A stretch of 43,587 nt of DNA. It comes from a virus. Made by a program: the position numbers and the translations under genes. Location: IMG/VR virus record IMGVR_UViG_3300031578_000110, positions 1 through 43,587 of that record, one strand, 5' to 3'. Below the pieces are notes generated by a model. That model was not told the DNA's origin and searched no databases. It worked only from the letters and a program-made list of their open reading frames with translations. Shown here piece by piece: positions 6,614 to 36,357 of the stretch. Position 1 is the stretch's first letter, and each line of letters opens with the position of its first letter.

Positions 6614-7257
6614 AACTGTTAAAAAAATCAAAAATAAAACAGCTTAATTTTTTTACACTTTTATTATTTTCTATTATGAACGTGATAATATGTATTGTGT
6701 ATAAAAAAAATGTATTTATATATGCATTACCATTTTTTATATTTTTATTTATATATGTATTTATTCATTCTTATAAAATAGATACTTGTATTTTTATAGC
6801 TGCATCTGCTTTTTCTATTTTATTTGGAGAATGGGGAGAATTACAAGGTGCTATTTTTCTTTATATCTCATATCATTTTCATGGAAATTTATATTTATTT
6901 ATTATATCGTTTATTTGTACTATTATAACGATAATGATAAAAATAATATTTAATTCAAGTTTTATTACTAATGCATTTATATATATTATAGGATTTATTT
7001 ATATATTTATTCTTTGTTATATATTGTTTTTTCCTAAAAAATTATATAATATAGTAATAGATGAAGATAAAATAAATTTAAAAATAATTGATTTTTTAAT
7101 TCAAGGAAATAGAATTAAAGAGATTTCTAATAAAGTTTATTTATCAGAAAATGCAATTACAAAAAGAATTGAAAAAATGAGAGTAAAATATAATTGTAGG
7201 AATAATGAGCAATTAGTATATAATTTTACTGAAAAAGGATATATAAGGCATAATTAA
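6598..7257 (+). CDS. Membrane protein with C-terminal LuxR-type helix-turn-helix
   Basis: This 219-residue protein has about five predicted membrane segments (near residues 17-36, 39-58, 63-93, 98-118 and 122-145). A C-terminal domain at residues about 158-215 follows the LuxR/GerE pattern: IIDFLIQG, then KEISNKVYLSENAITKRIEKM, then YNCRNNEQLV and a final Gly. LuxR-type domains bind DNA, and fusion to a membrane part suggests a one-component sensor that stays in the membrane. It lies just before the lysis control region, so it may govern lysis timing; that is inference. ATG 6598 has its GGAGGG binding site directly adjacent, so GTG 6601 is an alternative start. Confidence 0.7.
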   Translation: MVESLKLLKKSKIKQLNFFTLLLFSIMNVIICIVYKKNVFIYALPFFIFLFIYVFIHSYKIDTCIFIAASAFSILFGEWGELQGAIFLYISYHFHGNLYLFIISFICTIITIMIKIIFNSSFITNAFIYIIGFIYIFILCYILFFPKKLYNIVIDEDKINLKIIDFLIQGNRIKEISNKVYLSENAITKRIEKMRVKYNCRNNEQLVYNFTEKGYIRHN

Positions 7258-7298
7258 GCTTTATATATAAGGACAGGTCACACATGTATTATAATAAC

Positions 7299-7381
7299 AA
7301 TAGTAACCCTAAGGCTGTCTATTGTCATATAAAAAACATAGACGGCCTTTTATTTGTTTTTAAAAAGAAAGGGTTACTATT
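7299..7381 (+). promoter_or_regulatory. Inverted repeat that encloses a terminator and covers the lysis gene ribosome binding site
   Basis: AATAGTAACCCT at 7299-7310 is the exact reverse complement of AGGGTTACTATT at 7370-7381, which contains the ribosome binding site and ends one base before the ATG at 7382. Between the arms lies an intrinsic terminator. In RNA the arms would form a 12-bp stem that hides the binding site. TAGTAACCCT is also complementary to 7770-7779, the binding site of the next gene. Whether it acts in RNA, or as a DNA dyad for a regulator such as the LuxR-like neighbour, is open. Confidence 0.65.
7311..7362 (+). terminator. Intrinsic terminator upstream of the lysis cassette
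   Basis: AAGGCTGTCTAT (7311-7322) pairs with ATAGACGGCCTT (7338-7349), with one G-U pair, and is followed by a T-rich run through 7361. Transcripts from the tail operon would stop here unless read through or antiterminated, so lysis genes downstream would need relief of this stop. Confidence 0.8.
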
Positions 7382-7756
7382 ATGTCAGAAGGGAATAAAA
7401 ATATGACACCTGGTGAAATAAAACACGTCGATGAACAATTTAAAAGCCTTAAAGATTTATTTATTGAAAAAATAGAAAACCTAAAAGAAAGTTTTCAGGC
7501 ATTTATAAATACTTCTCTTAAAGATTCTGAAATACAAAGACAAGATATTGTTAGATTATATGACAAAACAAATGAAAATAAAGAGGAAATTATAAAATTA
7601 AAAGGTAAAGTAGAAAAAATAGAAGAAGTAAAAAAAGCAGAAGAAGGTACAAAAGATAAAGGTTTTAAAGTATGGCAATTGGTATTAGGATTATCTATAC
7701 CAACACTTTTATCAATAATTGGTTTAACAGTTACAATTATAAATTCATTACCATAA
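7382..7756 (+). CDS. XhlA-like membrane-anchored lysis protein
   Basis: A 124-residue protein with a long charged, coiled-coil-like region (residues about 12-90) and one C-terminal membrane segment (VWQLVLGLSIPTLLSIIGLTVTI). This is the layout of haemolysin XhlA-type proteins, which sit beside holins and help membrane permeabilisation. The next gene is holin-like and an endolysin candidate follows, which supports a lysis role. Its ribosome binding site AAAGGG lies inside the 12-bp inverted repeat, so translation may be controlled. An alternative is a phage membrane protein for an unrelated function. Confidence 0.65.
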   Translation: MSEGNKNMTPGEIKHVDEQFKSLKDLFIEKIENLKESFQAFINTSLKDSEIQRQDIVRLYDKTNENKEEIIKLKGKVEKIEEVKKAEEGTKDKGFKVWQLVLGLSIPTLLSIIGLTVTIINSLP

Positions 7757-10992: not shown

Positions 10993-11220
10993 TTATACCC
11001 TATCCGCCCGTATTACCGGGCACATGCTATATTCCCCAAGTGGTTTGCAGCATTCACTATTATCATATACGTATATCCCCCTAGTTGTGATATCTTTACC
11101 GTATTCCTTCAAGGTTATTCTCTTAGCTGTTCTCTTAATCACCGTAAATGAAAAAATACAATCATAATCACCAACGCTTCTTGTCGTGTAAGTTTTTCCG
11201 GTTTCAAATCTTGCTATCAT
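10993..11220 (-). CDS. Small conserved-looking protein of the leftward operon
   Basis: A 75-residue protein beginning MIARFETGKTYTTRS and ending in CKPLGEYSMCPVIRA plus a short basic tail. ATG 11220 is chosen over an ATG five codons upstream because AGGAGG lies 6-7 bases before it. I recall similar small proteins, with a Lys-Arg-rich beta core and the YSM-PVIRA end, in mobile elements of gut bacteria; this is from memory and not verified. GC content is higher than average here. Function unknown. Confidence 0.7.
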   Translation of the reverse strand: MIARFETGKTYTTRSVGDYDCIFSFTVIKRTAKRITLKEYGKDITTRGIYVYDNSECCKPLGEYSMCPVIRADRV

Positions 11221-11243
11221 AATCACCCTCCTCATTCATGTTT

Positions 11244-11258
11244 GTGCTTTTCATGCAC
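11244..11258 (-). promoter_or_regulatory. 5' hairpin of the second leftward transcript
   Basis: GTGC and GCAC arms (11244-11247 and 11255-11258) lie about 7 bases after the predicted transcription start of the promoter at 11272-11300. Promoters at 11891-11919 and 20331-20359 have hairpins in the same place. Confidence 0.5.
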
Positions 11259-11271
11259 TCTTTCTGTATAT

Positions 11272-11300
11272 ACATTAATACTATTTTTAATAAAAGTCAA
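11272..11300 (-). promoter_or_regulatory. Sigma-70-type promoter of the leftward operon (second)
   Basis: On the minus strand TTGACT (11300-11295), 17 bases, then TAATGT (11277-11272). The upstream stretch AAAAAAGTGC and the TTTA after the -35 box are also shared with the promoter at 11891-11919. It would drive the gene starting at 11220 and those beyond. Confidence 0.75.
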
Positions 11301-11331
11301 GCACTTTTTTAAATTATTTTTAAAATAATTT

Positions 11332-11487
11332 TTATATAATAATAAGATCTATATCAACACTCCCGCACTTTGTACAACCATTCATAAATGCTTTTTCGGC
11401 TGCCTTTACAGTCATCTTTTTACCACATTCCATACACTGAAAAGCTTTTAATGGTTTTATTTTTTTCTTTAATTCTTCTTTTGACAT
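11332..11487 (-). CDS. Small zinc-ribbon-like protein
   Basis: A 51-residue protein with two CxxC pairs: FQCMECGKK (Cys18, Cys21) and GCTKCGS (Cys38, Cys41), separated by a short helix. This is the form of a rubredoxin-like zinc ribbon that could bind DNA, RNA or protein. The binding site is AGGAGGAATGAGT. It is the second gene after the first leftward promoter, and a leader repeat (copy b) precedes it. Confidence 0.7.
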   Translation of the reverse strand: MSKEELKKKIKPLKAFQCMECGKKMTVKAAEKAFMNGCTKCGSVDIDLIII

Positions 11488-11512
11488 ACTCATTCCTCCT
11501 ATAAAAATATAT

Positions 11513-11550
11513 ATGCCGATATCCTATATAATTCCCCTCCCAGGTTACTA
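11513..11550 (-). repeat. Leader repeat element, copy b
   Basis: On the minus strand it reads TAGTAACCTGGGAGGGG followed by AATTATATAGGATATCGGCAT. It matches copy c at 20748-20786 nearly base for base over the first 31 positions, and it lies just after the stop of the gene at 11552-11842. Confidence 0.75.
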
Positions 11551-11551
11551 T

Positions 11552-11842
11552 TTAATTTTCTATAAATCCATGAGAATCTAACTCATCTATTGCATTATAA
11601 AAAAGCCATTCATAATCATAAAGGCTCTGTATTACATCCATTACAGAATGTCTTTGCCATCCTAAATGTGCAAATTTATCTAATATTGAAATCTCTTCAA
11701 CTGATTTGAATATCCTTTTCCATTTGAATTGAATAGCAGGTTCTATCATAGCAATTCTTGCACAATTTAACAATTCAGTATTATTTAAATTATATAATTT
11801 TCTATTTCCAACAATCTCTTTAATTTTATTTAATGTTACCAT
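11552..11842 (-). CDS. First gene of the leftward operon, unknown function
   Basis: A 96-residue, mainly helical protein with many aromatic residues (QFKWKRIF, DYEWLFYNA). ATG 11842 is preferred to ATG 11848, since GGAGG lies 6 bases before it and would overlap the other. It is the first gene after a strong leftward promoter, so it is probably expressed early and strongly. There are no motifs for a specific function. Confidence 0.65.
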   Translation of the reverse strand: MVTLNKIKEIVGNRKLYNLNNTELLNCARIAMIEPAIQFKWKRIFKSVEEISILDKFAHLGWQRHSVMDVIQSLYDYEWLFYNAIDELDSHGFIEN

Positions 11843-11862
11843 ATTCATCCTCCTGTTGGTTT

Positions 11863-11878
11863 CATGCTGTTTTGCATG
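11863..11878 (-). promoter_or_regulatory. 5' hairpin of the first leftward transcript
   Basis: CATGC (11863-11867) and GCATG (11874-11878) form a 5-bp stem with a 6-base loop, starting about 6 bases after the predicted transcription start. Such 5' ends can slow mRNA decay. Confidence 0.5.
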
Positions 11879-11890
11879 TTATCTATATAT

Positions 11891-11919
11891 ACATTAATAC
11901 CATTTATTGTAAAAGTCAA
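11891..11919 (-). promoter_or_regulatory. Sigma-70-type promoter of the leftward operon (first)
   Basis: Minus strand TTGACT (11919-11914), 17 bases, TAATGT (11896-11891), with AAAAAAGTGC just upstream of the -35 box. It is almost identical to the promoter at 11272-11300 and is similar in its upstream part to the one at 20331-20359. Confidence 0.75.
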
Positions 11920-11942
11920 GCACTTTTTTAAATAAAATAACT

Positions 11943-12113
11943 ATATATATATGTTAAGTACTATATGAAAAACGTCTGTAAACAGTCATATTTTTAAAAA
12001 GGTATTTAGATAGCATATATGTATAAAAAATCATTAGTAGTGTGGTTTTTCGTCGTATCATGGCATTTTTAAAAACTTTCTTAAACTTTTTATATAAATA
12101 TATTATTTTTCTC
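11943..12113. other. Divergent control region between the leftward and rightward promoters
   Basis: No gene is seen in this AT-rich stretch. The likely operator-like part is 11965-11993, where ATATGA and TCATAT flank GTCTGTAAACAGTC, a dyad with one mismatch. There are several A- and T-tracts that may bend DNA. A regulator binding here could choose between the two directions; no regulator can be assigned. Confidence 0.35.
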
Positions 12114-12142
12114 TTGACTTTTTAAAATAAATGATTTAATAT
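12114..12142 (+). promoter_or_regulatory. Main rightward early promoter (sigma-70 type)
   Basis: TTGACT at 12114-12119, a 17-base spacer, and TAATAT at 12137-12142 predict transcription from about 12149. It precedes a structured leader and the long replication gene cluster. Confidence 0.75.
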
Positions 12143-12148
12143 CATATT

Positions 12149-12325
12149 TGTACAGTGAATTTGTTCTTTTAAATAACTTTTTTGAAATCAACCGGGAAAA
12201 TAGTATTTTTAAATTTAAAGGCTTAAAGCAGCCAATGATAAGATTATTTTCCTTTCCCGGTTGGTATCTTATCATTCTGTCATTTATAGATAATGACAGG
12301 CTGCTTTAAGTCTTTTTTATTTTTT
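12149..12325 (+). ncRNA. Structured leader RNA with pseudoknot, three-way junction and U-tract
   Basis: Four pairings are visible. A: 12187-12199 with 12253-12265 (core CAACCGGGAAA with TTTCCCGGTTG). B: 12234-12244 with 12266-12276 (AATGATAAGAT with ATCTTATCATT). C: 12221-12233 with 12299-12311 (CTTAAAGCAGCC with GGCTGCTTTAAG). D: 12278-12284 with 12292-12298. C, B and D together form a nearly seamless three-way junction that ends in TCTTTTTTATTTTTT, as in an intrinsic terminator. A crosses B and C, so it forms either a pseudoknot with the B loop or a competing fold. It may be an attenuator, a riboswitch-like sensor or a released small RNA. I do not recognise a known class. Confidence 0.6.
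12299..12325 (+). terminator. U-tract terminator end of the leader RNA
   Basis: The 3' arm of stem C (12299-12311) runs directly into TCTTTTTTATTTTTT. With the C stem formed, transcription should stop about 25-30 bases before the first gene, whose binding site AAAGGAG comes just after. Confidence 0.55.
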
Positions 12326-12348
12326 AAAATGAAAAGGAGAAATAGATT

Positions 12349-12717
12349 ATGTCAAGTGATGATTATGTAGATGAATTAACAAAAGAAGAATTTGAAGAAA
12401 TATATAAACATAAAAATTCTATGTTCAAAACTGGAACTACTGTTTTTTTCGGTATAGGAAATGATATTAATTATGTTATTCCTATTTCAGAATGGGAATC
12501 AATAGTAAAATTTAAACCTAATATTGGTTATAAAGAATTCCATTGTTATTATTATAAAGAATATGATTTTATTGTAGTAACTGATAATGAATTTAAAAAT
12601 TGGAAACTTGCAACAGAAACAGCTTGTATACTTATAAAAAAATCAGATGAATATAAAACATGGTTTAAAAATAAAGCACATAGAAAAAGCTATTTTTCAG
12701 CATTTTTATATGTATAA
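12349..12717 (+). CDS. First gene of the rightward early operon, unknown function
   Basis: A 122-residue acidic-to-neutral protein with many aromatic residues, such as FHCYYYKEYDFIVV. The start has AAAGGAG 10 bases upstream, right after the leader's U-tract. Its position behind a regulated leader suggests an early regulator or host-takeover protein. I see no known motif. A ToxN-like toxin was considered and not supported. Confidence 0.65.
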   Translation: MSSDDYVDELTKEEFEEIYKHKNSMFKTGTTVFFGIGNDINYVIPISEWESIVKFKPNIGYKEFHCYYYKEYDFIVVTDNEFKNWKLATETACILIKKSDEYKTWFKNKAHRKSYFSAFLYV

Positions 12718-12737
12718 TAAAAGGAGAAATAATATAA

Positions 12738-14027
12738 ATGTCTGAACAAATAAAAGAGGAAAATAATAAAAGAGATTGGAAAGGAATATGGATTCCTAAA
12801 GAAATATGGCTTGCAAAAGATATTTCTATTATAGAAAAATGTTTATGGGCAGAAATTGATAATTTAGATAATGGAAAAGGTTGTTTTGCAAGTAATGATT
12901 ATTTTTCCAATATGTTTAATATTTCTAAAACATCAATAAGTAATCATATTTCCAATTTAAAAAAACAAAAATATATAAAACAATCTTTTTTTAATGGCAG
13001 AAGAAGAGTTTTAAATTCCTTTAAGGCAGCTTTAAAGTTTTCTTTAAAGCAGAATAAAAGAAAACTTAAAGGCAGCTTTAAAGAAAACTTAGAATCGTAT
13101 ATAGATAATAGTATAGAAAATAATATAGATAATAGTAATACTTCTAAGAGAAGTAAAAACGATTCTAATGAATCGCCTAAAACTTCTTATAATAAATCTT
13201 TATTTTTAGATAAGGATATATATTCATTATTTAAAAAAGTATTATCTAATAGCATTATTTTTAATAAGCATAAATTACCAGAAACAGAAAATGATTCATG
13301 TAGTAAACTGCTTATTCAATCACAAAAATATTTATTATCTTTTATGAATAATAGTTATGTAGATAGTTATGTATGGAATACTGAATGGAAGAAAAAAATA
13401 GATATATTTAATAACAAAACTTTTTTCTGTACAGATATATATTTATTATTTAAAAAGGCTATTATCAGATATAATAAAATGCATACAGATGGTTATTGGC
13501 CATATGATAAATCCAGTTTGACACATAATTTATCAGATTTTTTGTACAATCCCCGTACACATAAATCATGGTTTTTGTATTGTTTGTGTAATATTCCACA
13601 GGAATTAAAAAATGAAAATCATATTAAAATAAAAGAATCATTACCGGAAGACATACAAATAATGGCAGAAATATATATTAAGAATAAAAATTGGAATGAA
13701 ATAGAGTATTATAAAAAAGTAAATATTCTTTATGACTGGTTTAATACTAATCATAAAGATCTTTTAAAATACAATTATGTATTTTATGGGGGAAATATAT
13801 ATAGTTATATGCAACAATTTATTTCTTTTTTTAAATTGATAGATGAATATTCCACAATATATGATAATTGGAGTTTATCGAATTTTGGATATGGAAATAA
13901 AACATGGTCGGCTTTTATAAAATGGATATTAGAAAAGTATGGTTTTGATTTAAAACCAGATAAAGATAAATTAAAAAGAGGTGTGGACGCTTTTAATGAG
14001 AAAGAAGCGAAAAGAAAGGAGAAATAA
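12738..14027 (+). CDS. Replication initiator-like protein with N-terminal winged helix
   Basis: A 429-residue protein whose first about 110 residues (WKGIWIPKEIWL, then CLWAEIDNLDNGKGCFASNDYFSNMF, then SKTSISNHISNLKKQKYI) follow the helix-turn-helix pattern of phage replisome organisers and DnaD-like initiators. Such proteins bind the origin and recruit the helicase. The middle is a low-complexity Ser/Asn/Lys linker, and the C-terminal half is helical and aromatic-rich. A dense block of repeats at 13025-13090 inside the gene looks like an origin. It is the second gene after the main early promoter. Ribosome binding site: AAAGGAGA. Confidence 0.7.
   Translation: MSEQIKEENNKRDWKGIWIPKEIWLAKDISIIEKCLWAEIDNLDNGKGCFASNDYFSNMFNISKTSISNHISNLKKQKYIKQSFFNGRRRVLNSFKAALKFSLKQNKRKLKGSFKENLESYIDNSIENNIDNSNTSKRSKNDSNESPKTSYNKSLFLDKDIYSLFKKVLSNSIIFNKHKLPETENDSCSKLLIQSQKYLLSFMNNSYVDSYVWNTEWKKKIDIFNNKTFFCTDIYLLFKKAIIRYNKMHTDGYWPYDKSSLTHNLSDFLYNPRTHKSWFLYCLCNIPQELKNENHIKIKESLPEDIQIMAEIYIKNKNWNEIEYYKKVNILYDWFNTNHKDLLKYNYVFYGGNIYSYMQQFISFFKLIDEYSTIYDNWSLSNFGYGNKTWSAFIKWILEKYGFDLKPDKDKLKRGVDAFNEKEAKRKEK
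13025..13090 (+). repeat. Iteron-like repeat block inside the initiator gene (candidate origin)
   Basis: GGCAGCTTTAAAG occurs at 13025-13037 and 13071-13083. CTTTAAAGC (the reverse orientation) lies at 13042-13050. AAGTTTTCTTTAAAGC at 13035-13050 is a perfect 16-bp inverted repeat of GCTTTAAAGAAAACTT at 13075-13090. The core GCTTTAA also appears twice in the leader (stem C arms). Replication origins inside initiator genes are known in several phages (for example lambda O), so this is a good origin candidate. Confidence 0.6.
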
Positions 14028-16065: not shown

Positions 16066-16533
16066 ATGTCAAAAAAACCAATACAGATTACACATGGATG
16101 GGTAAAAGATTTTTTAAAAGAATTAAAAGATAAAGGAATAAAAGGATTTTATCATACTGGAAGTAATTTATTTGAATTAAGTAATAAAAATTCTGATTAT
16201 GATTATGTGGTTACAAATGAAACATGGGATTCTATAAATGAAGATGCTCATATATTTTATGGAAAAGGATGTAATAAAATAGATAGTTTTAGTAATGGTA
16301 AACCAGAATATGAATTTGAAAATCTAAAATTACAATTAGATAATGATTTATTTGATTTTATAGTTGTCCCTGATGAAATAGAATATAAAGTATGGGTTTT
16401 ATCAACTAAGGCTTTTTTATTATTACTTGATAATGTTGTTATTAAAAAAATAATGATAGATAAAAGTAAAAGAGTTGAAATGTTTGAAAATTTAAAAAAT
16501 GTATTTAGAGAATATTATAAGGAGGATGTATAA
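16066..16533 (+). CDS. Nucleotidyltransferase-fold protein (Pol beta-like)
   Basis: A 155-residue protein with the Pol beta-type motif: TGSNLFELSNKNSDYDYVV (Gly32-Ser33, then Asp44 and Asp46) and a third acidic strand, NDLFDFIVV. Such small proteins transfer nucleotides to RNA, proteins or antibiotics, and some act in toxin systems (MNT-type). Its target cannot be inferred. AAGGAGA precedes the start. The substrate-specific parts are not recognisable. Confidence 0.6.
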   Translation: MSKKPIQITHGWVKDFLKELKDKGIKGFYHTGSNLFELSNKNSDYDYVVTNETWDSINEDAHIFYGKGCNKIDSFSNGKPEYEFENLKLQLDNDLFDFIVVPDEIEYKVWVLSTKAFLLLLDNVVIKKIMIDKSKRVEMFENLKNVFREYYKEDV

Positions 16534-20330: not shown

Positions 20331-20359
20331 TTGACTTTTATAAATAACAATGATATTAT
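20331..20359 (+). promoter_or_regulatory. Sigma-70-type promoter of the right small-gene cluster
   Basis: TTGACT at 20331-20336, 17 bases, TATTAT at 20354-20359. The run of A's and the TGC just before the -35 box, and TTTA after it, match the leftward promoters. The gap 20289-20425 holds this promoter and its leader only. Confidence 0.75.
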
Positions 20360-24298: not shown

Positions 24299-24493
24299 AT
24301 GTTTATAGGATTATTTAAAAGGAAATTTGTAAAAGATAGATTTATTTTTCATGTTTTACAAAAATGTGGTTCTCCAAGGATATTAACTATGAAAGATTTT
24401 AGAAATAGATATAAATATATACCTCTTATAAAATGTAAAAAAATAGTTGATAAGATTTTAAAATTTAAATTGTATGAGGAAAAAGATAAATAA
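24299..24493 (+). CDS. Small basic protein, unknown function
   Basis: A 64-residue, Lys/Arg-rich protein (MFIGLFKRKFVKDRFIF). It directly precedes the SNF2-like helicase gene. A basic accessory to that helicase is possible but not supported further. Confidence 0.6.
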   Translation: MFIGLFKRKFVKDRFIFHVLQKCGSPRILTMKDFRNRYKYIPLIKCKKIVDKILKFKLYEEKDK

Positions 24494-24494
24494 A

Positions 24495-26174
24495 ATGAAA
24501 ACTGTTATGTATAAAGATAATAAATTATATGTACATTTTAAATTTCCCTGGAATGATCCAGAATTTAATAATACATTAAATAAGGTAAAATCTTTATATG
24601 GTAGAGAATTTATAATGGAATCTAAAAAATGGATAGTTCCACCCACAGATACTAATATAGAAAAATTAGCAGAATGGGAATTTGATTTTGACGATTCATG
24701 TATTCGTTTATTTGAAAAAGAAAATACAGAAGAAAATTATAAAAATATACCTATAGATAAAAGTCAATTAAAAAAGTTATATCCTTTTCAATTAGAAGCT
24801 GTTCAATTTTTAGAATACCACAAAGGAAAAGGATTAATTGGCGATGATATGGGTATTGGAAAAACTATAGAGTCATTATCTTATTTTAAAATACATAAAG
24901 AAAAAAGACCAATACTTATTATATGTCCTGCATCTATCAAGTTGAATTGGGAAAGGGAAATTTATAAATGGGTAAGTGAAAATGAAAAAGTTATTATTCT
25001 ATATGGAAATAAAAATTATGATATAAAAGATTTTGATTTTTGCATTATAAATTATGATATACTCGGTTATGGTCAAAAAGTAGAATATGAAAAAGATGGA
25101 GTGAAAAAAGAAAAAATTATATTAGCAGGTGGTTGGTATGAAACATTTTTAAATATAGAATGGAAAGGAATAATAGTTGATGAATGTCAATACTTATCTA
25201 CTCCATCTACAATACGAACTATGGCATTTAAACAGATTAAAAAAGTATGTAATGATAATATTATATTTTTATCAGGTACACCATTAAAAAATAAACCTTC
25301 TGAATTATTTACAGTATTAAATACTTTAGATAAAAATAAATTTCCTAACTATTATAAATATAAAGAAAGATATTGTAATCCTAAACATAATGGTTATGGA
25401 TGGATATATAAAGGTGTATCCAATTGGAAAGAACTACATAGAGAAGTAAAAAATATAATGATTAGACGTAGTAAAAGTGAAGTATTAAAAGATCTTCCTG
25501 AAAAGAATAGAATTATAATTCCTTTAGAATGTAATGAAAAATATTATGATAAATATATAGAAGAAGAAAATAGTATCATAGAAAATATGGATAGTAGAAA
25601 AAAATTAGAAAGACAAAATGATTTTGATAAGTTAAAAGGTATGGCATATTTTGCTAAACGTGATTCAATAATATCATGGTTAAAAGATTATATTTTAACA
25701 GGTAATAAAATAATTGTATCTGCATATCATATATCCGTATTAGATGATTTATGTAGTTGTTTTAATAAAAAAAATTATGTACGAATAGATGGATCTGTCC
25801 CATCTGTAAAAAGACAATCGATAGTTGACAGATTTCAAACAGATGAAAATACATTATTGTTTTTCGGGCAGATATTAGCAGCAGGGGTAGGAATAACATT
25901 AACGGCTGCAAGTGCATCTTGTTTTGTGGAATTTGGATGGACGCCAGCCGACCATATACAATTTGAAGATCGGGTACATAGAATAGGACAAATGGCCGAT
26001 TCTGTATTTGCTTATTATTTAGTAGCAAATGGTACAATAGAACAACATATAGTTGAATTATTACAACAGAAATATGATGTGATTAGTAAAGTGTTAGACG
26101 GAAAAGAAAATCAAACATTATTTGATAATTCAATTTTAGATGATTTATTTAATAGATTGAAAGGGAATAAATAA
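24495..26174 (+). CDS. SNF2-family helicase/translocase with HARP-like N-terminus
   Basis: A 559-residue SF2 enzyme. The N-terminal domain (residues about 10-90, KFPWNDPEFNNTLNKV then KKWIVPP) resembles HARP domains of SMARCAL1-type proteins. Motif I is GDDMGIGKT (116-124), motif II VDECQYL, motif III FLSGTPLKN, and the C-lobe carries GITLTAASA followed by QFEDRVHRIGQ. Such enzymes move along DNA and remodel stalled replication forks or protein-DNA complexes. ATG 24495 is chosen since the earlier ATG 24474 lacks a binding site. Confidence 0.85.
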   Translation: MKTVMYKDNKLYVHFKFPWNDPEFNNTLNKVKSLYGREFIMESKKWIVPPTDTNIEKLAEWEFDFDDSCIRLFEKENTEENYKNIPIDKSQLKKLYPFQLEAVQFLEYHKGKGLIGDDMGIGKTIESLSYFKIHKEKRPILIICPASIKLNWEREIYKWVSENEKVIILYGNKNYDIKDFDFCIINYDILGYGQKVEYEKDGVKKEKIILAGGWYETFLNIEWKGIIVDECQYLSTPSTIRTMAFKQIKKVCNDNIIFLSGTPLKNKPSELFTVLNTLDKNKFPNYYKYKERYCNPKHNGYGWIYKGVSNWKELHREVKNIMIRRSKSEVLKDLPEKNRIIIPLECNEKYYDKYIEEENSIIENMDSRKKLERQNDFDKLKGMAYFAKRDSIISWLKDYILTGNKIIVSAYHISVLDDLCSCFNKKNYVRIDGSVPSVKRQSIVDRFQTDENTLLFFGQILAAGVGITLTAASASCFVEFGWTPADHIQFEDRVHRIGQMADSVFAYYLVANGTIEQHIVELLQQKYDVISKVLDGKENQTLFDNSILDDLFNRLKGNK

Positions 26175-27340: not shown

Positions 27341-28732
27341 ATGAATAGAGAACGAATTGATTTATTTCAGGAAAGGCAGATTATTATTTATATGATAGTA
27401 TCATCTAAATATTTAAAGGAAATACAATCTATAATAAAACCAGATTATTTTAATAGTCCATATGGACAGACTATAAGTAAATGGGTTTTAGAATATTTTA
27501 ATGAATTTAAAACTTCACCCGGTAAGCAGATAAAAGACATTTTTTATCAGAAATCTGTAACAATAAAAAATAAAGATCATGTTGAAAATGTATCTGATTT
27601 TTTATCGTCCATATCGGATGAGTATGAAAATAGCAGTGTCACAGGTGATATTGAATTTATTTTAAAACAATCTATTGATTATTTAAAAATTAGATCACTT
27701 GACATACTATCTGATAAAATAAAATTGGCAGTAAATAATAATAATCCTTTAGCAGGTGAGCAATTTTTAGCTAATTACAAAAGAGTTGAAAAAATGTATG
27801 GTACAGGTGTATCTATTTTATATGATGCACAAGAAATAAAAAATGCATTTATGATGGAAGATGAAATATTATTTTCTTTTCCAGGTGTATTAGGTGAGGT
27901 ATGCGGGAAGTTTTTAAGAGGTGATTTAATTGCTTTTATGGCAGCTGCTAAGAAGGGGAAATCATGGTTCCAAATGTACTTGGCAGAAGTGGCAATGTTT
28001 TATGGTTATAAAGTACTTTTATTTGATTTAGAAATGACTAAAGCACAAAGAATAAGACGGACATGGTCAGGATTAGTTGGAGAACCACGAAAAAGCAAAG
28101 ATATAGAAATATTTAAATTTGTAGAAAGTGGTATTAAAGATAAATGGAAAATTGAAAAAGATATTATAAGTAAAAAAGGAATAAATTTAAATAATATAGA
28201 AAAAGAACAAAAAAAGTTTAAAAAAATGTCAAAATGTGGTGATTATAAAATAGTTACTGTTCCTGCTAATAGTAATACAATAGAAGATATAGAATTATAT
28301 TTAGATAACTTTTATTTTTATGAAAATTATATTCCTGACATTGTTATAATTGATTTTATTGATATAGCTAATAAGTCTAAATATTTTACTGGGGATCATA
28401 GAAATGAAATAAATGATAAATGGGTAAAAGTAAGACACATTGCAAAAGATAGAAATATATTGGTTGTATCTGCAACTCATTCTGGTAGATCGACATTTTC
28501 AAGGGATGCTACGGAAAGTGATACTGGTGAAGATATACGAAAATTAGCACATGTTGGAAAAATGATTGTTATAAATCAAAATAAAGATGATGCATTATGT
28601 AATTCTGTCAGAGTTACACAATTGATTGAACGTGATGGAAAAAAGAATTGGGATGAGGCTATAATTTTACAATGCCTTGATATAGGTAAGCCTTATTTAG
28701 ATAGTCGATATGTCAAAGATATTGTAAAATAA
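27341..28732 (+). CDS. Replicative DNA helicase, DnaB-like
   Basis: A 463-residue protein with an N-terminal helical domain (residues about 1-120) like DnaB family members and a C-terminal RecA-like motor. Walker A is AAAKKGKSW, a slightly degenerate form of GxxxxGKS, followed by VLLFDLEMTKAQRIRR. Walker B is IVIIDFIDI, and further motifs include VVSATHSGRS with an Arg-rich C-terminal region. It unwinds duplex DNA ahead of the polymerase as a hexamer. ATG 27341 is chosen; TTG 27314 would add nine residues and neither has a strong binding site. Confidence 0.85.
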   Translation: MNRERIDLFQERQIIIYMIVSSKYLKEIQSIIKPDYFNSPYGQTISKWVLEYFNEFKTSPGKQIKDIFYQKSVTIKNKDHVENVSDFLSSISDEYENSSVTGDIEFILKQSIDYLKIRSLDILSDKIKLAVNNNNPLAGEQFLANYKRVEKMYGTGVSILYDAQEIKNAFMMEDEILFSFPGVLGEVCGKFLRGDLIAFMAAAKKGKSWFQMYLAEVAMFYGYKVLLFDLEMTKAQRIRRTWSGLVGEPRKSKDIEIFKFVESGIKDKWKIEKDIISKKGINLNNIEKEQKKFKKMSKCGDYKIVTVPANSNTIEDIELYLDNFYFYENYIPDIVIIDFIDIANKSKYFTGDHRNEINDKWVKVRHIAKDRNILVVSATHSGRSTFSRDATESDTGEDIRKLAHVGKMIVINQNKDDALCNSVRVTQLIERDGKKNWDEAIILQCLDIGKPYLDSRYVKDIVK

Positions 28733-29019: not shown

Positions 29020-29172
29020 ATGATGAAAACTAAAGAAGAAATAGAAAAGAGATTAGAAGAGTGTGAACGAATAGAAATTGGTATGAGAAATAATGTTGAA
29101 AATTATTTTAGTAATGATTTTAAAATAATTGATATAAAAATAAAATTATTAGAATGGGTATTAGATATATGA
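29020..29172 (+). CDS. Very small helical protein
   Basis: A 50-residue, charged helical protein with an AAGGAGA binding site before ATG 29020. Its end overlaps the next gene as ATGA (29169-29172), so both are probably coupled in translation. Confidence 0.6.
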   Translation: MMKTKEEIEKRLEECERIEIGMRNNVENYFSNDFKIIDIKIKLLEWVLDI

Positions 29173-30581
29173 GTTATAATGATTTTATTCAAAAGAAATT
29201 AAAAATATCTCATTATCATGGTTTTGAAGTTGATAAAAAGGACATACATAAAACTTTATTTAATTATCAAAAAGATTTGACATTATGGGCATTAAAAAAA
29301 GGAAAAGCATGTCTATTTACAGGTACGGGTACAGGTAAAACTTTTATGGAGTTAGAATTTGCCAGACAAGTAAATTTAAAAACTGGTAAAAAAAGTATAA
29401 TTGTTGCACCATTGGCAGTATCAGAACAAATAAGAAAAGAAGCACATGATAAAATGGGATTAGACATATATAATATTCGTAGAAATACAGGAAATTATAA
29501 AAGTGATATTCATATTATAAATTATGAATCAATTTCAAAAATAGATCCTGCTGATTATATCGATTGTATTTTTGACGAAAGTTCTATACTAAAGAATTTA
29601 GATGGAAAAAGAAGAAATGAATTGATTGAAATGTTTATAGATTATTCGTATAAATTATGTTGTAGTGCAACACCTTCACCGAATGATTTTATGGAATTAG
29701 GAAATCATTGTCAACATTTAAATGTGATGAGTTACAATGAAATGTTAGCTATGTACTTTACACATGATGGAAGTGATACTACTAAATGGAGATTGAAAAA
29801 ACAAGGTATAAAAAGATTCTGGGAATTTCTGTCCACATGGGCAGCATTTATGAATGAACCATCCGATTTAGGATATGATTTTAATTTTAATTTACCGGAA
29901 TTACATATAGATATTATAAAAGTAAAAGAAGAATATAAAAATGAAAATAAATTTTTCTTAGTTGATGTAGATGTTTCTAAAATGTCATTAAATGATAGAA
30001 GAAAAGCAAGAAAGAATTCATTATCAGCTAAAGTAGAATGGATTAAAAATTATATTGATAATCATAAAGATAATATTTTTTGTATTTGGTGTGATTTAAA
30101 TAAGGAATCTGAAGAATTACATAAAAATATAAATGAATCTATTGAAGTGAAAGGAAGTGATAAATTAGAAATAAAAGAAAAAAATCTACTTGCTTTTTCA
30201 GAAGGTAAAATAAAAGAATTGATTACTAAGCCGAAAATAGCTGGTCATGGTATGAATTGGCAAATTTGCCATAATGTTTTTTTCTGTGGTTTATCGGATT
30301 CGTTTGAACAATTTTTTCAGGCTATTAGACGATTCTGGCGATATGGTCAATTACACAATGTAAATGTTTTTATAGTAGTTTGTGATTCTGAAAATATCAC
30401 TATAGAAAATATTCAAAGAAAGGAAAGAGACCATAATAAAATGTATTCTGAAATGGTTTTGCATACTAAAAAATATATTATTGATGATATAAGAGGAAAT
30501 AAAGACCATGCATCTTCTTATAAACCTAATATAAATATGATAATACCGGAATGGTTAAGGAGTTATACAGATGTTAGTTGA
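29169..30581 (+). CDS. SF2 DEAD/SNF2-like helicase beside a DNA methyltransferase
   Basis: A 470-residue helicase. Motif I is FTGTGTGKT (about residues 50-58), motif II IFDESSI, motif III CCSATPSPND, and the C-lobe carries AGHGMNWQICHNVFFCGL then QAIRRFWRYGQ. Proteins with this motif III (ATPSPND) are often found next to, or with, DNA methyltransferase genes in phages and mobile elements (from memory). ATG 29169 is chosen for its ATGA overlap; ATG 29154 is an earlier in-frame alternative. Its partner may be the methyltransferase at 30851-31858, suggesting joint DNA modification or takeover of host DNA. Confidence 0.8.
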   Translation: MSYNDFIQKKLKISHYHGFEVDKKDIHKTLFNYQKDLTLWALKKGKACLFTGTGTGKTFMELEFARQVNLKTGKKSIIVAPLAVSEQIRKEAHDKMGLDIYNIRRNTGNYKSDIHIINYESISKIDPADYIDCIFDESSILKNLDGKRRNELIEMFIDYSYKLCCSATPSPNDFMELGNHCQHLNVMSYNEMLAMYFTHDGSDTTKWRLKKQGIKRFWEFLSTWAAFMNEPSDLGYDFNFNLPELHIDIIKVKEEYKNENKFFLVDVDVSKMSLNDRRKARKNSLSAKVEWIKNYIDNHKDNIFCIWCDLNKESEELHKNINESIEVKGSDKLEIKEKNLLAFSEGKIKELITKPKIAGHGMNWQICHNVFFCGLSDSFEQFFQAIRRFWRYGQLHNVNVFIVVCDSENITIENIQRKERDHNKMYSEMVLHTKKYIIDDIRGNKDHASSYKPNINMIIPEWLRSYTDVS

Positions 30582-30858
30582 ATTATTGATAATTAAAAAA
30601 GCTTGTTATTATGTTAATAATAAAGCAATACGATATAAAATAATAGGAAAGAAAAATAAAACAAATGTATTTCAAGCTATATGGATTCCTAAATCATGTT
30701 TAGCTAAAGATGGTATGAAAATAATTAGAAATATAGATTGGTTCTGGAATGAAAAAATAAATAAACATAAATTATTTTTAGCTGGTTATATTGTTAATGA
30801 AAATGATAATATAACAGTTGATGTTATTATTAGAAAGGAGTTAAATGATAATGAGTAA
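30571..30858 (+). CDS. Small protein between helicase and methyltransferase, unknown
   Basis: A 95-residue beta-rich basic protein. Good binding site AAGGAG precedes ATG 30571, which lies inside the helicase's last codons. Ends inside the methyltransferase start region. No motif recognised; possibly an accessory of the pair. Confidence 0.6.
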   Translation: MLVELLIIKKACYYVNNKAIRYKIIGKKNKTNVFQAIWIPKSCLAKDGMKIIRNIDWFWNEKINKHKLFLAGYIVNENDNITVDVIIRKELNDNE

Positions 30859-31858
30859 AATTAAAGTTATGGATCAATTATTAAATGATAACTATTGTTT
30901 GTATAATGGGGATTCTGTGGATATATTAAACGAATTTCCCGATGAAAGTGTGGGGTATTCTTTATTTTCTCCACCATTTATGGATTTATATGTATATTCA
31001 GATAGTGAAAGGGACATGGGAAATTCAAAAAATAATGATGAATTTTGGAATCATTTTAATTATCTTATTAAAGAATTGTATAGAATAACCATTCCGGGTA
31101 GATGTGTATCAATACATTGTTCACATGTTCCCACAAAAAAAGCATGGGATGGAATAATTGCATTAAAAGATTTTCCAGGTGATATAATACGAATCTTTCA
31201 AAATAATGGTTTTTTATTTCATAGTCCAGTTACAATATGGAAAGATCCATTGATTGAAACAGTGAGAACAAATGCAAAAGGATTATTATATAAACAGCTA
31301 TGTAAAGACTCATCGTGTTCACGTCAAGGATTGGCTGATTATATTATTACTATGAGAAAAAAAGGAGACAATCCATATCCTATAGAACATAATATATATA
31401 TAGGTTTAGGTACTTATCAAGGTAAAAAAGAATTTGAACCTGACATGCAAAAAATAGAAAATGATATACTTTGTTCTGCAATAAAAGATTATACAAAAGA
31501 AGAATTAGAAAAATTAAAAACATTAAATTATAATCATCGGGTATGGCAGTTATACGCCAGTCCGGTATGGATGGATATTCGACAGACACATGTACTACAA
31601 AAAAAAGATGCAAGGGACGCAGAGGATGAAAAACATATCTGCCCATTGCAGTTAGATACTGTACATAGATGTATAACTATGTGGAGTAATAAAAATGATA
31701 TTGTATTAGATCCATTTATGGGAATTGGTACTGTGGGATATAAAGGTTTAGAATTAAATAGAAGATTTGCAGGATGTGAATTAAAAAAATCCTATTATCT
31801 GCAATCTGTAAAGAATGTTAAAAAAATTACTTTTAATAAGAGTAATAAAATATTATAA
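30851..31858 (+). CDS. DNA methyltransferase, beta class (N4-cytosine or N6-adenine)
   Basis: A 335-residue enzyme with the catalytic SPPF (residues 40-43) near the N-terminus and the SAM-binding DPFMGIGT near the C-terminus (about 287-294). This order defines the beta class. SPPF is more usual for N4-cytosine enzymes, but N6-adenine cannot be excluded. No restriction nuclease gene is adjacent. A likely role is protection of phage DNA from host restriction. ATG 30851 is chosen for a 10-base spacing to AAGGAG; ATG 30845 is the alternative. Confidence 0.8.
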   Translation: MSKIKVMDQLLNDNYCLYNGDSVDILNEFPDESVGYSLFSPPFMDLYVYSDSERDMGNSKNNDEFWNHFNYLIKELYRITIPGRCVSIHCSHVPTKKAWDGIIALKDFPGDIIRIFQNNGFLFHSPVTIWKDPLIETVRTNAKGLLYKQLCKDSSCSRQGLADYIITMRKKGDNPYPIEHNIYIGLGTYQGKKEFEPDMQKIENDILCSAIKDYTKEELEKLKTLNYNHRVWQLYASPVWMDIRQTHVLQKKDARDAEDEKHICPLQLDTVHRCITMWSNKNDIVLDPFMGIGTVGYKGLELNRRFAGCELKKSYYLQSVKNVKKITFNKSNKIL

Positions 31859-33553: not shown

Positions 33554-33850
33554 ATGGAAAAGTGTTTTAAATGTGGTTTTAAGCATTATGATTTTGAGGA
33601 TTGTCTAACAACTTTTTTATTTTTATATGGGGATTATTATGGTGGTGAATGGCAAACAATAGGTGCATATAGTTTTGAGGATGCTGCTGAAAGGGCAGCA
33701 ATAGAAATAAATGAAGATGAAAATAATACAGGTGTAATAATAAAAAAAATAAGTATTGCTAATTATGATAGTACAGTTATAAAATATTTTTCTGTTGATG
33801 CTCGTGTAGAATTAAATTATTATACTAAAAAATTAGAGGAAAACAAATAA
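33554..33850 (+). CDS. Small CxxC-containing protein, unknown function
   Basis: A 98-residue protein with CFKC (about residues 4-7) near the start and an acidic, helical middle. It overlaps the next gene by one base (TAATG). Possibly a metal-binding accessory of the polymerase; no further evidence. Confidence 0.6.
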   Translation: MEKCFKCGFKHYDFEDCLTTFLFLYGDYYGGEWQTIGAYSFEDAAERAAIEINEDENNTGVIIKKISIANYDSTVIKYFSVDARVELNYYTKKLEENK

Positions 33851-36357
33851 TGCCACAAGGATTTTTTAAAGAGTTAGACATAACACCAATTAAAAATAAA
33901 TCTCATAATAGAATAATGGATTGTAGTGATTGTGGATTAAATAGAAACTGTAAATCATCTGAAATAATAAAAGTAAAAGGTGAAGGTAAAAAAAGAATAT
34001 TGATTGTTGGTACATGTCCGGAAAAAACAGAACATATAGATTTATTAAATGAACATATAAAAAATATAGATCGTGATTATTGGATGACAAATGCTGTTAT
34101 ATGTAACACTCCCGATAATAGATTACCTACAAAAAAAGAAATAAAGATATGTCATCAATTTTTATTAAAAACAATAGAAACATATAATCCTAAAACTATT
34201 ATTGTAATGGGTGATATAGCATTAAATAGTATAATAGGTGATAGAATTTCTGGACGAATAAAAAATGTTTCTTTTTCAGATTGGGTAGGTGAAAGAATAC
34301 CAGATCAGCATTTACAAAAATGGATATGTCCTATATATGATATCGGTTATATACTACAAAATGATAGGGATAGAGTATTAAAAAGAAACTGGATTGATTC
34401 TATTGAAAAAGCAATAAAAACTATAGATGATGCTTTTTATATTCATAATTATGAATCCGATGTTATCATTATTAAAGATGTAAATGAGGCTATAAAATGT
34501 ATTAAAGATATAAAAAATAAAAAAGTACCATTTGCATTTGATTATGAAACCGATGGATTAAAACCATATAGTAAAGGACATTGTATATATTCAGTATCTA
34601 TTTCAGATGGATTATTTTCTTATGCTTTTCCATTTTTTGATAATGATGATTTTAAGAATGTATTTAAAAAGTTAATTTGCTCACCGCATGCATTACCTAT
34701 AGCACAAAATATTAAATTTGAGGAAATGTGGACTAACATTATATTAAATGGAACTATTAAAAATAGAACATGGGATACAATGATAGGTCAATCTGTACTG
34801 GATAATAGAAAAACAACACAATTAAAATTCTGGACATATATACGATATGGTGTAATAGGTTATGATGAGGATGTTGACAAGTATTTAAAAAGTAATGATA
34901 AAAGTACAAATTCTTTTAATGAAATTGAAAATGCAATAATAGATAAAGTATTATTATATAATGGATTAGATTCTTTATTCACATATAAATTATATGAATA
35001 TCAAATAAGTAATATAAAAGGTAATTTATTAGATGCATATAATCTTTTTATTAAAGGAAATAGATGGTTATTAAAATGTCAAAATAATGGTATTAGATTA
35101 GATATAGAACAAATAGAAAAAAATAAAAATGAAATAAGTAATAATTTAAAATTATTAAAAGAAGAAATAAAAAATGATAGTATATTAAAAAAATGGGATA
35201 AGGATGAACCATTTGAATTTAATAAACCAGATAAATTAAGATATTTATTATTTAATATATTGAAAATTAAAAAAGGTAAAAAAACTAATAAAGGTAGTTT
35301 ATCTGTTAATCACGCATCTTTAGAAAAAATAAAGTTACCAATTATAAAAAATATACTTGAATATAGAAAATGGGAAAAAGTATTGAGTACATATATTATG
35401 CCATATTTACGGGAACATACAGATAGTATTATACATCCATTTTTTAATTTAGGTACAAGCAGAAAGGGAAAAGGAGTTGTTACATATAGATCATCATGTG
35501 ATTCACCTAATCTACAAAATGTACCAAATAGAAATAAAGAAGTAAAAAACATGGTACGTACACCTATTATAGCACGAAAAAATCATAAATTAGTAGAATG
35601 GGATTTTAAAGGGATGGAAGTTTCTATTGCAGCATGTTATAATCATGATCCAGTGTTAATAAAATATTTAGAAGATCCTTTGTCCGATATGCATAGAGAT
35701 TGGGCGAGTGAATTATTTATAAAAGATAAATGTGATATAGATAAAAAAGAAAGATATATAGGAAAAAATGGTTTAGTATTTCCTGAATTTTATGGTAGTT
35801 ATTATGTGGATATTGCAAAAGAAGTATGGATTGTTTTACCAGAAAGTACATTAAATCATTTAAAAAGTAAAGGTATTATTTCATATGAAGATTTTGAAAG
35901 TCATGTACAAAAAATAGAATCTAAATTTTGGGAAACATTTTCTGTATATGGTGAATGGAAAAAAGAAACATATAGAGATTATGAGAAAAAAGGATATGTA
36001 GATTTATTTACCGGTTTTAGATGTTATGGGCCTATGAAATATAATGAAGTAATAAATTATAGAATACAAGGAACAGCTTTCCATTGTTTATTGTATACGT
36101 TAAATCATGTTATGGAAAGAATGGAAAATAAAGGTATTAGTGATAGTTATATTATAGGACAAATTCATGATTCTATGTTAGGTGATATTTTACTGGAAGA
36201 TGAAAATTCTATAGATAAAATGATATGGTATTATGGCACTCAAAAAATAAGGGAAGATTGGGAATGGATAATAGTACCATTAAGGATAGAAAAAGAAAGT
36301 TCAGAAATAAATGGTAATTGGGCAGAAATGAAAGATTGTGGTTATTTAGAGTTTTAA
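33850..36357 (+). CDS. Family A DNA polymerase with uracil-glycosylase-like N-terminus
   Basis: An 835-residue protein. Residues about 20-190 resemble a type IV uracil-DNA glycosylase: CSDCGLNRNC (Cys25, Cys28, Cys34), then ILIVGTCPEKTE. Canonical GEAPG and HPS motifs are degenerate. The 3'-5' exonuclease starts with FAFDYETDG (Asp231, Glu233). Polymerase motifs are VEWDFKGME (about 581), KNGLVFPEFYGSYY (about 638) and IHDSMLGD (about 771). It is the phage replicative polymerase. Whether the N-terminal domain has activity or is a structural remnant is open. Confidence 0.9.
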   Translation: MPQGFFKELDITPIKNKSHNRIMDCSDCGLNRNCKSSEIIKVKGEGKKRILIVGTCPEKTEHIDLLNEHIKNIDRDYWMTNAVICNTPDNRLPTKKEIKICHQFLLKTIETYNPKTIIVMGDIALNSIIGDRISGRIKNVSFSDWVGERIPDQHLQKWICPIYDIGYILQNDRDRVLKRNWIDSIEKAIKTIDDAFYIHNYESDVIIIKDVNEAIKCIKDIKNKKVPFAFDYETDGLKPYSKGHCIYSVSISDGLFSYAFPFFDNDDFKNVFKKLICSPHALPIAQNIKFEEMWTNIILNGTIKNRTWDTMIGQSVLDNRKTTQLKFWTYIRYGVIGYDEDVDKYLKSNDKSTNSFNEIENAIIDKVLLYNGLDSLFTYKLYEYQISNIKGNLLDAYNLFIKGNRWLLKCQNNGIRLDIEQIEKNKNEISNNLKLLKEEIKNDSILKKWDKDEPFEFNKPDKLRYLLFNILKIKKGKKTNKGSLSVNHASLEKIKLPIIKNILEYRKWEKVLSTYIMPYLREHTDSIIHPFFNLGTSRKGKGVVTYRSSCDSPNLQNVPNRNKEVKNMVRTPIIARKNHKLVEWDFKGMEVSIAACYNHDPVLIKYLEDPLSDMHRDWASELFIKDKCDIDKKERYIGKNGLVFPEFYGSYYVDIAKEVWIVLPESTLNHLKSKGIISYEDFESHVQKIESKFWETFSVYGEWKKETYRDYEKKGYVDLFTGFRCYGPMKYNEVINYRIQGTAFHCLLYTLNHVMERMENKGISDSYIIGQIHDSMLGDILLEDENSIDKMIWYYGTQKIREDWEWIIVPLRIEKESSEINGNWAEMKDCGYLEF

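Follow-up and report, generated by a model that had tools for sequence, protein, structure and literature searches.

A folded leader RNA with a crossing helix, a possible attenuator, at the head of a phage replication operon

In phage HK022, the put RNA works through the polymerase to affect terminators further downstream. In the rplJL-type protein-controlled attenuators of Bacillus subtilis, antiterminator and terminator share nucleotides (PMC4538822), the pIP501 repR leader (RNAII) is attenuated by the antisense RNAIII (PMC4981023), and RepE of plasmid F binds inverted repeats located between the promoter and repE (PMC13028717).

By analogy, the phage leader analyzed here would work most like the replication-operon leader attenuators (pIP501 repR, PMC4981023). 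Like the pIP501 repR transcript, that of the phage replication initiator would begin with a long leader that is not translated and where a terminator can cut synthesis short, but the plasmid depends on an antisense RNA, whereas no antisense promoter was seen here, and the phage leader has a crossing helix in its fold and no sequence match in PLSDB. As in the rplJL-type attenuators, a terminator-bearing leader precedes an operon and the choice would be made during transcription; in contrast to them, the early helix (A) and the putative terminator helix (C) of the phage leader are built from different nucleotides. The likeness to HK022 put lies in a folded RNA that heads early phage operons and affects termination, the difference being that the phage leader itself ends in a putative terminator and has no match in Rfam. 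Finally, an iteron-like inverted repeat between promoter and initiator operon recalls the F repE operator, but here 76 bp separate the arms, whose match to the iterons is partial and which are part of a nested RNA fold with a U-tract.

The window, by which we mean the whole analyzed stretch of 43,587 bases (virus record IMGVR_UViG_3300031578_000110), has a low GC content of 24.4%. Baseplate genes occupy its left part, and the right part is a long early/replication block (primase, DnaB-like helicase, clamp, DNA polymerase, clamp loader and UvsX-like recombinase). Two helicase genes (24474-26174 and 29154-30581) both match PHROG 62, and the second is followed by a DNA methyltransferase gene (30845-31858). 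Minus-strand genes (start 11848) and plus-strand genes (start 12349) are separated by a 500-bp control region, whose right end is the leader. A small unlisted minus-strand reading frame of ~53 aa (~11333-11493) adjoins this divergent control region and carries two CxxC-type pairs (CMEC...CTKC), which gives it a zinc-ribbon-like appearance. The features of the leader and its surroundings, in window coordinates, are the following:

11300-11272 (minus), 11919-11891 (minus), 12114-12142 (plus) and 20331-20359 (plus): copies of the putative promoter family CTTGACTTTT...TAnnnT
12114-12142, plus strand: putative promoter TTGACT-17-TAATAT with a predicted RNA start near 12149, one of the four intergenic copies, 9/12 to consensus
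12149-12325, plus strand: predicted leader RNA, ~170 nt to the U-tract (MFE -47.0, z -5.6; unique in the window)
12187-12199, plus strand: 5' strand of helix A, AUCAACCGGGAAA, 13 bp with 12253-12265, one G-U
12217-12233, plus strand: 5' strand of helix C, 17 bp with 12299-12315, one G-U
12234-12244, plus strand: 5' strand of helix B, 11 bp with 12266-12276
12253-12265, plus strand: 3' strand of helix A, UUUCCCGGUUGGU, within the B loop
12266-12276, plus strand: 3' strand of helix B, pairing with 12234-12244
12278-12298, plus strand: hairpin D, 7 bp (12278-12284 with 12292-12298) and a 7-nt loop
12299-12315, plus strand: 3' strand of helix C, the putative terminator stem, with UUUAUUUUUU directly after it
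12313-12325, plus strand: U-tract TTTTTTATTTTTT, read from the sequence
12333-12341, plus strand: ribosome-binding site AAAGGAGAA of the first gene, read from the sequence
12349-12717, plus strand: first operon gene, 122 aa, no relatives found in Pfam, PHROG, PADLOC and phage-collection searches
12738-14027, plus strand: replication-initiator-like protein with an N-terminal HTH (PF13730 4.7e-06; phrog_2880 1.5e-14)
13019-13083, plus strand: three iteron-like 19-bp repeats (CTTTAAGGCAGCTTTAAAG) within the initiator gene, sharing TTAAAGCWGCC with the C arms, which is weak as a link

All four pairings described by the first-pass annotation were recovered at the places it gave, with helix C extending over 17 bp instead of 13. 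The almost seamless three-way junction of C, B and D was likewise confirmed (B abuts the 5' side of C, D abuts its 3' side, and 12277 is the only unpaired base between B and D), as was the terminator-like end, with helix C leading straight into the U-tract. The leader folds with an MFE of -47.0 kcal/mol, the shuffles averaging -27.3 (z -5.6; 0/200 shuffles as good), and in a window-wide fold scan with a reduced shuffle number it ranked second by z-score among 964 segments of both strands. Three strong nucleotide-disjoint helices at one place are found in the leader and nowhere else in the window, and the window scan for strong crossing helix sets returned, besides the leader, one weaker spot at 28301. 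Helix A brings the 5' tail and the B loop together, a match not explained by composition: none of 3000 shuffles of the tail paired equally well with the loop, and in the reverse control, where the short B loop was shuffled instead, 23/3000 were as good. The crossing of A with B and C, previously read as a pseudoknot or a competing fold, is thus genuine, but A, B, C and D have no nucleotides in common and do not form a classical overlapping alternative, so any competition between A and B/C must be topological; among the strongest remaining alternative helices in the leader, none replaces C. The analysis supports a folded leader RNA of ~170 nt, running from the predicted start near 12149 to the U-tract, and we consider it very probable that the element is an RNA fold under selection.

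A second strongly folding intergenic spot was noticed at 7231-7410 (z ~-5.4 on the plus strand). Its inner hairpin (AAGGCTGTCTATT...ATAGACGGCCTT) has a T-rich tail and is surrounded by a 12-bp outer stem, the 3' arm of which covers the beginning of the gene at 7382, and the fold may represent a terminator plus translation-control hairpin.

Consistent with the initial impression that the leader belongs to no known riboswitch class, it had no Rfam match; no part of the window scored at or above the gathering score, and the scores near the leader were at chance level. HDV-like ribozymes have the strand order P1, P2, P3, P3', P1', P4, P2'; this class was rejected because the 3' strand of A comes before that of B and no Rfam match exists. 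A type III toxin-antitoxin RNA was also rejected: the leader has no tandem array among the repeats found in 11200-13400, and the first gene falls into none of the Pfam, PHROG and PADLOC families and has no toxin match.

Homologous leaders in related phages, which the first-pass annotation had proposed to look for, were not found in IMG/VR, INPHARED, PLSDB, four virus records and about 800 bacterial genomes, collections that may omit records very near the window. In brief, blastn of the leader against INPHARED and PLSDB gave short non-significant pieces only, and exact-arm pattern scans of IMG/VR and the GTDB genomes gave chance matches, none of which, among the matches listed, had the B and C context. 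A covariance model built from the single leader sequence had no hits in the four virus records, related or distant, in 393 Spirochaetota-type genomes (the phylum of a Treponema MAG), or in 399 genomes from the class of Saccharibacillus and seven others. The one good IMG/VR relative of the DNA polymerase (47%) is encoded by IMGVR_UViG_3300028823_000325, a fragment without the operon head, and distant relatives were seen besides it; an arm-like match near the end of this fragment was discarded as a leader relative, as it sits in coding sequence. Fragmentary relatives of the polymerase (33850-36357) also occur on 6-kb contigs of two MAGs, neither of which shows the leader on these contigs; the first MAG belongs to the same phylum as a Treponema MAG (730 bits), the second shares its class with a Clostridia MAG, and the pair may serve as a lead to the host.

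The promoter at 12114-12142 had been called strong. Its 9/12 match is as common in shuffles, but its membership in a four-copy family speaks for it: CTTGACTTTT followed 17 bases on by a -10-like TAnnnT occurs at four places in the window, all of them intergenic, with the two minus-strand copies lying in a 61-bp direct repeat (85% identical). We took these copies as a putative phage-specific promoter family. The 23 bases from the U-tract to the first gene are too short for a promoter and the next plus-strand family promoter lies at 20331, so the genes from 12349 to ~20288 would probably depend on read-through of the terminator. Weak promoter-like matches are present inside the early genes, and some of them could be real promoters. 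As expected of an intrinsic terminator, a G+C-rich stem (the 17-bp C, with 7 G-C pairs) is followed by a U-tract, which overlaps the last 3 pairs of C; the short closing loop is lacking, the 65 nt enclosed by C being a junction from which B and D branch off, and the standard terminator scan accordingly leaves C out of its list. That the B loop might mask the ribosome-binding site was considered and dropped (222/1000 shuffles equally good).

Whether A, B and C could form together was estimated with ideal, straight A-form helices, a crude model in which the crossing pairing, as in an H-type pseudoknot, has feasible but taut linkers. With A and B both formed, the 8-nt linker 12245-12252 is stretched to 5.8 Å per step, and addition of the inner 13 pairs of C puts the other linker at 5.1 Å per step, whereas the outer four pairs of C, beside the U-tract, require 6.9 Å per nucleotide step. 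In this model helix A likely strains the base of the putative terminator C without forbidding it. MFE folding of the growing transcript, which considers nested folds only and hence treats A and C/B as exclusive, showed A appearing from 12260-12265, complete at 12265, dominant to 12305, and giving way to C+B+D at 12310. RNA polymerase encloses 10-14 nt of RNA, so that the swap would become possible only once the polymerase has reached the U-tract, and the modelled timing is that needed by an attenuator.

These features lead us to propose, tentatively and at somewhat below an even chance, that the leader is a cis-acting attenuator RNA in which an early helix A is set against a late terminator C. 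From the phage early promoter, the polymerase would begin the leader near 12149 and extend it to about 12320, helix A closing first, ahead of the 3' strands of B and C. Once the polymerase has released the 3' strand of C, this helix could close around B and D and act as an intrinsic terminator, so that transcription would stop at the U-tract and release an RNA of ~170 nt. If A persisted, it would hinder B and the base of C, by topology or because it is held by a factor, and the polymerase would go on to transcribe the early operon, with the 122-aa gene and the initiator at its head. The balance would be set by time, by a phage or host protein, or by the initiator itself. The helices, the order in which they become available, the U-tract, the promoter family and the want of promoter room before the first gene are read or calculated from the sequence; we infer a terminating role for C, an opposing one for A, and some influence that sets the balance between them.

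In favor of the attenuator are a structure far beyond chance and unique in the window, a long stem C running into a U-tract that ends 24 nt ahead of the first start codon, the exchange of A for C+B+D at about the moment when the polymerase would stand on the U-tract, the strain that A should place on the outer 4 pairs of C (straight-helix estimate), and the position of the next plus-strand family promoter, only at 20331. Among the hallmarks of attenuators, an upstream helix able to precede the terminator is present, since A precedes C+B+D in prefix folding, and mutually exclusive helices sharing nucleotides are absent, A being disjoint from B, C and D; with no nucleotide common to A and C, there is no classical antiterminator, which counts against the reading, as do the failure of the strongest alternative helices to replace C, the empty result of the searches for homologous leaders in the collections covered, and the weak promoter-like matches within the early genes. 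Termination by so large a junction stem is assumed.

Much of the same evidence would also suit a stand-alone phage RNA of ~170 nt with a static pseudoknotted fold, whose target in trans might be host RNA polymerase, the ribosome, another RNA or a defence system; transcription continuing into the operon would then be either constant or a side effect. Four helices made of different nucleotides, with feasible linkers, can coexist as in a static fold, and the RNA, stable and unique in the window, would have its own promoter and its own terminator. We nevertheless judge this reading somewhat unlikely, because the element lies 24 nt before a first gene that has no separate promoter, it has no known target, no relatives were found although trans-acting RNAs are often shared, and it is not a type III antitoxin array followed by a gene with a toxin match. 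Also unlikely, and a little more so, is a bolder version of the attenuator, a new RNA class in which the early-forming 13-bp crossing helix would mechanically keep the base of a junction-type terminator open, or, failing that, a trans-acting stand-alone knotted RNA.

The leader had been placed at the head of an early/replication operon, and this is borne out by the second gene, whose product has a phage replication-initiator HTH; only this HTH is held in common with other phages. Searches of Pfam, PHROGs, PADLOC and the phage collections returned nothing related to the 122-aa product of the first gene, and the AlphaFold model of this protein is uninformative (mean pLDDT 40). This orphan protein (12349-12717) and the product of 16066-16533, which weakly resembles a nucleotidyltransferase domain, have a common short motif, FIVV.D..E.K.W.L.T. 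The repeats at 13019-13083 have a 23-bp spacing, not divisible by three, also make a long inverted repeat and are followed by an AT-rich stretch to ~13280; together with this stretch they are probably a lambda-O-type origin, judging from sequence features. A further iteron-like box at 11398 was dropped, as it lies inside a small reading frame.

It could be imagined that the initiator binds the C arms and represses its own operon as iteron-plasmid initiators do, for which RepE of plasmid F is a precedent (PMC13028717), the RNA fold being secondary. The 11-bp core TTAAAGCWGCC has four copies in the window, namely both C arms and two of the iteron-like repeats, the half-sites in the arms are 10/11 identical to those repeats, and a C arm is equalled in its match to the repeats by only 18/8616 window 17-mers of similar GC. 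Against shuffles and a matrix scan the resemblance is weak: 20% of arm shuffles reach the score, and in the ranking by a matrix built from the repeats, the two C arms come no higher than 10th and 13th. With arms 76 bp apart, and with A, B, D and the U-tract unaccounted for, we find such a site quite improbable as the explanation of the element.

Leaky terminators are common in phage operons, and an ordinary one with an ornate hairpin, lowering or polarizing early transcription, would require neither a ligand nor homologues; helix A would then have no role, and as the 13-bp pairing of tail and B loop is unneeded there and not expected by chance, this reading is very improbable. Control by an opposite-strand RNA that refolds the leader, to which the place and length class shared with the pIP501 repR leader (PMC4981023) would point, is extremely improbable, since the minus strand of the leader and of the bases right next to it offers only weak promoter matches, none of them convincing (among the best, TTGACA-18-CATTTT at 12355-12326).

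The opening of early phage operons is usually credited to repressors or protein antiterminators. If the attenuator reading is true, a compact pseudoknotted leader that gates the replication operon would be a further, RNA-based route, and the disjoint helices make the question whether a knot can hold a terminator open directly testable. Initiator binding at the C arms, if it occurs as well, would make the element a link between transcription and the control of replication.
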